DNA of 16,752 nucleotides from Candidatus Naiadarchaeum limnaeum (GTDB lineage: Archaea; Undinarchaeota; Undinarchaeia; Undinarchaeales; Naiadarchaeaceae), in the NCBI GenBank assembly GCA_014189685.1, contig DVAB01000003.1:1-16752 (forward strand), read 5' to 3'. Positions 2,852-13,155 of this stretch are shown in pieces (position 1 is the first letter of the stretch; each line of letters opens with the position of its first letter). The position numbers and the translations under genes were made by a program. The notes below the pieces were generated by a model. It saw only the letters and a program-made list of their open reading frames with translations. It made no database searches and had not been told where the DNA came from.

Positions 2852-3652
2852 CTATTTCTTCTCTCCGGTCTTCTTCTCTGGAGCTTTCTTTTCCTCTGCT
2901 TTTGGAGCCGCTCCTCCGGCTGCCGGGGCTCCTGCTGCTGGCGCTGCCCCTGGGGCTGCAGCTGCTTCCACCGGCAATAACTTCTGTATGATATCTGCTG
3001 GAATTCCAGCCTCCTTCAAAGCTGCCTTTATCTCTGAGCGTTCGCGTCCAGTCATCTTCTCCATTATTTCCTGTGCTTTCTTCTCTGCCTGTTCGCGTGC
3101 TTTCTTTGTTGCCTCTGCAAGCGCTAACTTTTCTTGCTCCAGTTTTGCAAGCTCCTCTTTTGTTAGCTCTGTTTTTCCAGCTCTGATTTTAACATCAAAC
3201 TCTCCGCTATCGATTAATTTCAGCGCTTCTTTTGCATCCTTTCCCTCAACAAGAATTCCCATTGAAACGCAGCTTCCAACAACAGTCTTAACTGCGCCTC
3301 TTAAATCATTGCTCAAAAGCACAGCTTCTTTCATTTTTGCAATTTTAATTGCCTGCTCAATAAGCATGTTTGCAACTTTTTCAGCTTTTGGGTTTCCAGA
3401 AGCTTTTTCTAAATTTAATTCCTTTTTAATCAAAGCAGAAACAGGGGGGGTTCCAACCTCAACTTCGAAAGTTCTATCTTTTTTAACTTTAACAATAACC
3501 GGAACTTGCATTCCTGCAAACTCTTTAGTCTTCTCATTAATAGCAGCAATCACTTTTGGAATAGGCACTCCTAGTGGACCTAAAGCCGGGCCTAATGGCG
3601 GCCCTGCAGTTGCCTTACCTCCTTCTACAAGTGCTCTGATTTGATCTGGCAT
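2852..3652 (-). CDS. rpl11: Large-subunit ribosomal protein uL11 with long C-terminal extension
   Basis: Residues 1-157 are a standard archaeal uL11, which binds the GTPase-associated centre of 23S rRNA near the stalk base. The Pro/Gly-rich N-terminal region AGPPLGPALGPLGVPIPKVI (16-35) and the C-terminal RNA-binding domain with GSCVSMGI (126-133) are intact. Archaeal uL11 is usually about 160 aa; this one has 266. The extra part is a charged, probably coiled-coil helix (about 163-198), a short helical segment MTGRERSEIKAALKEAG (200-216), an Ala/Pro/Gly hinge (228-250) and a Lys/Glu tail (251-266). That layout resembles the flexible tails of P0 and P1 stalk proteins. A TATA-like element near 3676-3687 suggests a leaderless mRNA. 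The gene follows secE-spt5, but L1, L10 and L12 do not follow it. Confidence 0.95.
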   Translation of the reverse strand: MPDQIRALVEGGKATAGPPLGPALGPLGVPIPKVIAAINEKTKEFAGMQVPVIVKVKKDRTFEVEVGTPPVSALIKKELNLEKASGNPKAEKVANMLIEQAIKIAKMKEAVLLSNDLRGAVKTVVGSCVSMGILVEGKDAKEALKLIDSGEFDVKIRAGKTELTKEELAKLEQEKLALAEATKKAREQAEKKAQEIMEKMTGRERSEIKAALKEAGIPADIIQKLLPVEAAAAPGAAPAAGAPAAGGAAPKAEEKKAPEKKTGEKK

Positions 3653-3697: not shown

Positions 3698-4195
3698 TTA
3701 TTCCTCGGTCTCCTTTTCTTCTTTTGCCTTCCCTTCGCCCTCTTTCGTCTCCTCTTCCATGCCTCCTTTCTCTAATACACGGACAGATTCAGCAGGAACT
3801 GTGATTGGAATTGGAACAGTGGCTTCCAAAAGCTCAATTGTAACTTCGTTTTTAGTTTTATCAACACGTGTGATTTTTGCCTTCTCCCCCTTAAATGGCC
3901 CACTTGTGACCTCAACAATAAATCCTTCCTGCAGGTTTGTAACTGCTGGCATAGGTGCAAGAAAGTGCTCAATTTCAGCAATAGTTGTTTCCCCTTCTAC
4001 AAGTCCGCGCGCATGCGCAACTCCTCTATAAGCCTTGTCAATATCATTCTTGTCGCCCTCAACTAAAATATACCCCTTTAATCCTGGGACAACAATCGCA
4101 GAAATTTTTACTTTATCTCGCTCTATTCTATCCGCTAATTTTGAGGCTACATTTCTCTCCTTATTTGCTGTTGTGCGGATTGCGTATATTCCCAT
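3698..4195 (-). CDS. spt5: Transcription elongation factor Spt5 (NusG family)
   Basis: A 165-aa archaeal Spt5/NusG homologue, a processivity factor that bridges the RNA polymerase clamp. The NGN domain covers about residues 1-85 (GIYAIRTTANKERNVA at 2-17, GYILVEGD near 41-48, VAHARGLV near 59-66). A KOW domain follows at about 88-140, with GFIVEVTSGPFKGEKAKI at 91-108. The last 20 residues are a Glu/Lys tail beyond the usual archaeal end. The ATG directly follows the secE TAA with no spacer, so the two are almost certainly co-translated. A polymerase-associated Spt4 partner is expected elsewhere in the genome. Confidence 0.95.
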   Translation of the reverse strand: MGIYAIRTTANKERNVASKLADRIERDKVKISAIVVPGLKGYILVEGDKNDIDKAYRGVAHARGLVEGETTIAEIEHFLAPMPAVTNLQEGFIVEVTSGPFKGEKAKITRVDKTKNEVTIELLEATVPIPITVPAESVRVLEKGGMEEETKEGEGKAKEEKETEE

Positions 4196-12324: not shown

Positions 12325-13155
12325 TTACATTATCTCCGCTTGTTTCAAATAAGCATTTAACACTGCCCTTAACCCACTCTCATTTACTAATTCAGAATTC
12401 TCGTTAAAATAATTGTTAGTATCAAGTGTTTCTGTAATTGTTTTTGAATTCATTATCTGCCCTATGCCGCCAGATTTTTGCATTCTGATAACAATTGCAA
12501 GTCTTTCCTCCATTCCGTGCGGAATTGTGATGCCCTCAATTTTTAATGCTTTCTCTAAATTTAACTTTGAAATATAAACTCTTGCCTGCATCCACATGCG
12601 TTTGTGTGCAGGCGGCAAATAAATGTACATGAAATAATCTTTCTCAGGCGTTGTTTTTACAGGAGTCCAGCCGTTTGCCATTACAAGCCCGTGCAATGCG
12701 CGCGCGACAAACTCATCTTTCGGAGCACTGGCAACTTTTTTCTCTTCTTCCTCCGAAGGAGTTAAAACTTCTTCCTCAAGCACTTCCTCAACCTCATTTT
12801 TCGGGGTCTCCTCTACTATTTTCTGCTCAATTACCTCTTCTATGTCCAAAGGAACTTCGTTCCTTTGGCTCCGCGAAACCTCTGGTTTCGCTTGGTCTTC
12901 AGGCTTTTCGCCCTGCGAAATCTCTGCTGTCGCTTCGCCTTCAGTCTTTTCACCAACATCCCCAATAGCTTCTTTTATAATTTCGCTGGCAGGATTTGTC
13001 TGAGCAGGAACCTCCTCTTCTGCAGCTTCTGGAAGTTCTTTTTCTTCTTCCTCAGCCGGCTGCTGGAATTCCCACTCCTTGAAAACCTTTTCAGCTCCTT
13101 TCTTCTCCCGGCTCTTGGAAGAATCTAAAAACTTGCTTAAATCGTCCTGTGTCAT
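12325..13155 (-). CDS. Uncharacterised acidic low-complexity protein with C-terminal domain
   Basis: A 276-aa protein I cannot name. Residues 1 to about 148 are Glu/Pro/Ala-rich and probably disordered. They contain a 14-residue tandem repeat (68-81 and 82-95, pattern GEKxExxAxxE[IV]S) and a 9-residue palindrome-coded insert-like stretch (96-104). Residues about 150-276 look like a folded domain: a helix (FVARALHGLVMANGW), strands (DYFMYIYLPPAHKRMWMQAR, ERLAIVIRMQKSGG) and a C-terminal helix ending LNAYLKQAEIM. There is no signal peptide or transmembrane helix. A TATA box at 13178-13185 predicts a leaderless start. The gene lies 32 bp downstream of the 156-aa gene on the same strand, so they may be linked in function. 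Confidence 0.75.
   Translation of the reverse strand: MTQDDLSKFLDSSKSREKKGAEKVFKEWEFQQPAEEEEKELPEAAEEEVPAQTNPASEIIKEAIGDVGEKTEGEATAEISQGEKPEDQAKPEVSRSQRNEVPLDIEEVIEQKIVEETPKNEVEEVLEEEVLTPSEEEEKKVASAPKDEFVARALHGLVMANGWTPVKTTPEKDYFMYIYLPPAHKRMWMQARVYISKLNLEKALKIEGITIPHGMEERLAIVIRMQKSGGIGQIMNSKTITETLDTNNYFNENSELVNESGLRAVLNAYLKQAEIM
12846..12868. repeat. 10-bp perfect hairpin with 3-nt loop inside a CDS
   Basis: CCAAAGGAAC (12846-12855) and GTTCCTTTGG (12859-12868) pair perfectly around TTC. On the minus strand the core is AACGAAGTT, the same as in the hairpin at 1-15. It encodes residues 96-104 of the acidic protein. Confidence 0.75.
12873..12891. repeat. 8-bp perfect hairpin with 3-nt loop inside a CDS
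   Basis: GCGAAACC (12873-12880) pairs with GGTTTCGC (12884-12891) around TCT. It is 4 bp from the hairpin at 12846-12868. A weaker 6-bp hairpin, TTTCGC-CCT-GCGAAA, follows at 12906-12920. Confidence 0.75.
12873..12954. repeat. Imperfect 42-bp tandem repeat, two copies
   Basis: The units begin at 12873 and 12915; 33 of the first 40 positions match by eye. The period is a multiple of three, so reading frame is kept and the protein shows a 14-residue repeat. The first unit holds the GCGAAACC hairpin; in the second the palindrome has decayed. Confidence 0.75.

Follow-up and report, generated by a model that had tools for sequence, protein, structure and literature searches.

Few parts of the ribosome are as conserved as uL11 at the GTPase centre, and the uL11 gene of Candidatus Naiadarchaeum limnaeum raises the question of what a long C-terminal addition to such a protein is, how widely it is shared and what it could do at this site.

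An in-frame extension follows a canonical uL11 core

Within the window analysed here (the whole 16,752-nucleotide stretch), open reading frame and Pfam/NCBIfam analysis identified the uL11 gene as a single open frame of 266 aa on the reverse strand (2852..3652), with an ATG start and no internal stop. The Pfam models Ribosomal_L11_N and Ribosomal_L11 match the protein only over residues 1-157, with both L11 domains (PF03946/PF00298) scoring above the curated cut-off, and the NCBIfam model for archaeal L11 (NF002232) covers residues 3-157. These residues (3182..3652, reverse strand), as delimited by the family models and by structural alignment, make up the N-terminal domain (NTD) and RNA-binding C-terminal domain (CTD) of a canonical archaeal uL11, and the model of the protein aligns with M. 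jannaschii uL11 (5d8h_C, VIA) with a Z of 17.0 and an rmsd of 2.2 over 157 aligned residues. In the PDB, full-length chains of archaeal uL11 have 161-164 residues; judged by the family-model limits, the present protein has 109 residues beyond its 157-aa core. The initial annotation, which had counted 108, was correct that this extension follows the core in frame and that it consists of a charged helix, a short helical part, an Ala/Pro/Gly-rich linker and a Lys/Glu-rich end. It had also described the charged helix as a coiled coil, and this part of the description found no support: a search for a hydrophobic stripe on the long helix gave a hydrophobic moment not above that of shuffled sequences (p 0.15-0.35), that is, no significant amphipathicity.

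The same in-frame extension recurs across 80 named contigs and 28 of the 345 archaeal genomes sampled, which rules out an origin by frameshift or assembly join. The source genome (0.98 Mb, 98% complete) contains a single uL11 copy and no second paralogue. Directly upstream of uL11 is a gene for NusG/Spt5 with NGN and KOW domains (3698..4195, reverse strand), and this protein likewise ends with a Lys/Glu-rich low-complexity tail. Elsewhere in the window, the product of a gene at 12325-13155 (reverse strand) is 276 aa in length, matches no Pfam family and has a long N-terminal half rich in Glu, Pro and Lys.

The helical part of the extension is conserved and under purifying selection

Alignments, AlphaFold models and dN/dS values together distinguish two parts of the extension. 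Residues 158-229 (2966..3181, reverse strand) form a conserved arm with a KTEL motif (residues 160-163), a predicted long helix (165-199) and two predicted short helices (205-214 and 219-225), and residues 230-266 (2855..2965, reverse strand) form a variable, predicted-disordered Ala/Pro/Gly linker with a Lys/Glu-rich end. Across 52 sequences, the mean pairwise identity was 0.70 for the NTD, 0.65 for the CTD, 0.50 for residues 158-229 and 0.29 for residues 230-266, and alignment occupancy was 1.00 for residues 158-229 and 0.57 for residues 230-266. From residue 155 to 230, 51 of the 52 sequences are equal in length and the remaining one is a single residue shorter. The K-T-E-L entry to the arm is near-invariant, and K160, T161, E162, E167, E174, L178, A193, I196, G202, I208, I217, I222 and P227 are either invariant or present in at least 90% of the rows. 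Residues 158-229 are under purifying selection, with a dN/dS of ~0.07 in the extension versus 0.04-0.09 in blocks of the core (two more divergent same-genus pairs).

When the full-length protein was modelled with AlphaFold from this alignment, the three helices were predicted at the positions given above, with block-mean pLDDT values of 86-95 over residues 161-220 and disorder from ~230; the extension modelled alone yielded the same helices with a pLDDT of 79. Although the Ala/Pro/Gly hinge and charged end are present in this uL11, they are not kept in relatives, and the charged disordered end is, judging from the alignment, disposable.

The arm is found in several DPANN groups and only in uL11

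All of the best 80 archaeal contigs retrieved in a search of named genomes encode the extension, a set of matches that establishes its presence and says nothing on its absence. Their labels are Woesearchaeota, Nanoarchaeota, Nanohaloarchaeota/Nanohalarchaeota and Undinarchaeales, with some given only as archaeon, DPANN or Euryarchaeota. In the sample of 345 archaeal genomes, 28 genomes representing 19 families covered the extended-uL11 profile at least as far as position 231, and among the matches listed, most of the other uL11s stop near position 157. The archaeal clades that share the extension are Undinarchaeota and several other DPANN groups. The extension is restricted to uL11: a profile of residues 155-230 alone matched 14 of 149 genomes, at one place in each and always at the C-terminus of uL11, and detected no second copy of the arm elsewhere in these 149 genomes.

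Lys/Glu-rich uL11 tails of ~38-106 aa also occur in other lineages (sampled genomes G013, G035, G055, G075, G095, G100 and G115), and these are non-homologous tails to which the arm profile gives no match. In family f37 (G051, G071 and G091; L230, L232 and L233), uL11 matches in two pieces and is ~30 residues longer within the core, which suggests an internal insertion. Searches for homologues of the extension found none in Pfam (weak matches only, mostly coiled-coil-type); a sequence search of the PDB also gave no homologue (best E 0.068), and the model of the extension had no Foldseek match (best E 7.4). The arm seems not to have been described before, as no account of a C-terminal extension of DPANN or archaeal uL11 was found in the open-access journal papers searched, and L11 is not mentioned in the main text of the Undinarchaeota paper (PMC7414124).

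Relationship of the arm to the primase fusion and to DPANN phylogeny

A fusion of the primase subunits PriS and PriL has been reported for Undinarchaeota and DPANN Cluster 2 (PMC7414124). The primase of the source genome is one 446-aa frame in which, by eye, small-subunit catalytic motifs are followed by a cysteine-bearing large-subunit part, and on these motifs it is a PriS-PriL fusion. A genome of the same order, G004, is identical in DNA to a named one, Candidatus Undinarchaeales archaeon SRR5007147.bin71 (L035), and the window is accordingly treated as part of an Undinarchaeales MAG. A primase was detected in 13 of the 14 genomes found with the arm profile, and all 13 belong to the fusion-like group (recognised by a short, incomplete match within a frame of 420-530 aa), three primases having been read directly and the rest of the group judged from match shape. 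Many genomes of the fusion group have no uL11 arm; since some fusion-bearing DPANN do without it, the arm is not essential to the ribosomes of PriS-PriL-fusion DPANN.

In a tree of the uL11 core and P0, 13 extended genomes of Woesearchaeota type grouped with the source genome and the other Undinarchaeales (G002-G005) at a UFBoot of 100. Two further extended groups, G009 and the genomes of Nanohaloarchaeota type, were placed apart with other archaea mixed in, and DPANN was not recovered as one group. That the arm aligns almost without gaps favors a single origin, perhaps with later loss or transfer. The arm is also a candidate rare genomic character for DPANN relationships; the PriS-PriL fusion and loss of Csl4 have already been proposed for Undinarchaeota plus Cluster 2 (PMC7414124).

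A proposed structural arm at the stalk base

The reading that we favor, with a probability of roughly 0.55, is that residues 158-229 would be a structural arm of DPANN lineages whose contact at the stalk base is fixed and whose layout is comparable to that of the C-terminal helix of mammalian mitochondrial uL11m. The KTEL-led helix of ~35 residues and the two short helices would continue from the end of the rRNA-binding domain, and the partner of the arm would be uL10/P0, GTPase-associated rRNA or else a bound GTPase or tRNA, the contact serving to steady or tune the docking of factors. A fixed stalk-base contact is the most economical reading of the sequences and single-chain models from which the arm is known here, and two additions to uL11 in other systems, described below, are precedents for such additions mattering at this site. 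The lack of a significant amphipathic moment in the long helix and the absence of the arm from some fusion-bearing DPANN count against it. A near-fixed, selected addition of 70 residues in several major DPANN lineages suggests that ribosome and factors meet differently in these organisms. The more far-reaching proposal, that in Undinarchaeota and much of the related DPANN the ordered arm reaches the factor-binding site and alters the work of GTPases or of a DPANN-only factor, beside a P0 without a factor-binding tail, is possible but unlikely.

Alternatively, the arm could be a docking site for a DPANN-specific trans-acting protein, such as a hibernation, assembly or surveillance factor, with residues 201-229 as the binding surface. 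The uL11/stalk region binds other factors elsewhere, and the compact two-helix cap with its conserved G202, I208, I217, P218, I222 and P227 looks like a recognition element; however, no candidate partner emerged, and we consider a docking site of this kind unlikely.

Sequence evidence against a second stalk tail

The initial annotation had likened the extension to the tails of the stalk proteins and proposed that it acts as a factor-recruiting arm, which would catch elongation factors and add to or replace the tails of P0/P1. The P-stalk tails (aP0, aP1 and P1/P2) do share with this uL11 the order of a helical part, an Ala/Pro/Gly hinge and a charged end, the extension is sited at the stalk base, and the P0 tail has been lost in the source genome. 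Nevertheless, the terminal hydrophobic hook of the stalk tails is absent from the extension. In P. horikoshii, a 14-mer from aP1 binds aEF1A, whereas the 11-mer obtained by removing its last three residues does not (PMC6791870). A GLxxLF-like hook was found in none of 106 uL11 ends, and in 103 of these the final ten residues contain no F, W, Y or L. Among the ends counted, 26 come from the sampled genomes, which overlap in part with the named set, and a few are cut off by the contig. The analogy draws on the hinge and charged end, the very parts that relatives do not keep. Comparison of the extension profile by hhalign gave 26% over 11 columns for P1 and 0.8% over one column for P0, too little to indicate a meaningful similarity.

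The state of the stalk proteins also speaks against this analogy. L10 and L12/P1 were both found, ruling out that stalk genes are missing from the source genome. Its aP1 is intact and canonical, ending in GLGALFG, and a search of 30 related genomes detected aP1 in 29, every copy with an uncut end carrying the hook. In the source genome, uL10/P0 (L004:937-1803, contig C41) has 288 aa and stops after the spine helices, lacking both hinge and charged tail; shortening by assembly error is unlikely, given that the P0 stop adjoins the end of a convergent gene and leaves no space for a tail. Of the suggestion that a stalk component is missing, what survives is that the stalk is altered by loss of the P0 tail, and not that a component is absent. 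Moreover, P0 still ends in GLGALFG/GLGSLFG in 7 of the 28 genomes with the extension, those of families f47 and f101, which form the Nanohaloarchaeota-type group. Such an end was not seen in the other 21 (in G003, P0 is cut off by the end of its locus), and the hook has also been lost from P0 in unextended fusion-group genomes with readable P0 (e.g., G017, G022, G031, G051, G059, G063 and G071). Because loss of the P0 hook and presence of the uL11 extension do not track each other, the arm is no simple replacement for the P0 tail. That the arm is a second stalk tail fishing for factors is not supported by these sequences, and we regard it as very unlikely.

Across DPANN, P0 has widely lost the GLxxLF hook, which aP1 keeps, a second testable peculiarity of the stalk. 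The P0s of the Undinarchaeales genomes G003-G005 (L116-L118) end in long Lys/Glu/Pro-rich tails, two of which could be read to the stop codon and have no terminal hydrophobic hook, and L116 runs off its locus. Close upstream of aP1 (L002:1839-2252) is a gene for a 137-aa protein with a stretch resembling domain 2 of elongation factor Tu (PF03144, E 2e-5, just below the cut-off).

Unlikely alternatives: a neutral extension and rRNA compensation

The extension could also be neutral, a tail peculiar to its lineage that serves no specific role, as may hold for the Lys/Glu-rich ends of many DPANN proteins. The non-homologous Lys/Glu-rich uL11 tails of other lineages and the similar ends of NusG and P0 in these genomes are in keeping with this explanation, which fits residues 230-266. 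Residues 158-229, however, are a poor match to it, as they hardly vary in length, average 50% pairwise identity between lineages and have a dN/dS of ~0.07; a neutral extension as a whole is highly improbable.

Finally, the arm might make up for rRNA lost from the stalk base, an idea put forward for extensions in mitoribosomes and applied here by analogy with the mammalian mitoribosome (PMC7395135). For the GTPase-associated centre of 23S rRNA (~1174) this is largely refuted, as the centre is intact and full length in extended and unextended genomes, the source genome included, and the rRNAs differ in length away from it, near reference positions 130, 583-630, 1282 and 1844; we consider compensation very unlikely. 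Partial 23S rRNA pieces on two contigs of the source genome cover overlapping model positions, 159-460 and 663-2973 (with gaps) on C34 and 16-1422 on C47 (L278 and L280-L283), possibly reflecting two rRNA copies or an assembly break.

Comparison with known uL11 additions

Additions to uL11 are known from other systems, and each differs from the DPANN arm. The NCBIfam entry NF011111 (PRK14539, 50S ribosomal protein L11/unknown domain fusion protein) likewise combines uL11 with an extra domain, but it matches the present protein only over residues 21-176 and with 72.3 bits against a cut-off of 310. The MPPKFDP motif at the N-terminus of eukaryotic uL11, which binds the P-complex and supports translation (PMC9122527), is also an addition specific to one lineage; it consists of seven flexible N-terminal residues, whereas the arm described here is C-terminal and predicted to fold.

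Mammalian mitochondrial uL11m resembles the DPANN protein in having a helix added after the C-terminal domain of uL11. In VIA, mammalian uL11m (6gb2_BK) aligns with residues 2..228 of the uL11 model, past the core, with a Z of 13.5 and an rmsd of 4.3 over 171 aligned residues, a score to be read with the ease with which long helices match, and the alignments of 6vlz_J and 8pk0_J also run past the core. This similarity may be just that of a long helix leaving the same point. By chain length, the addition in uL11m is ~30-35 residues, its sequence has no detected relation to that of the arm, and we know of no two-helix cap in uL11m; the helix presumably arose independently, in a uL11 of bacterial type. 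In human uL11m, this C-terminal helix contacts domain IV of EF-G1mt (PMC7395135).
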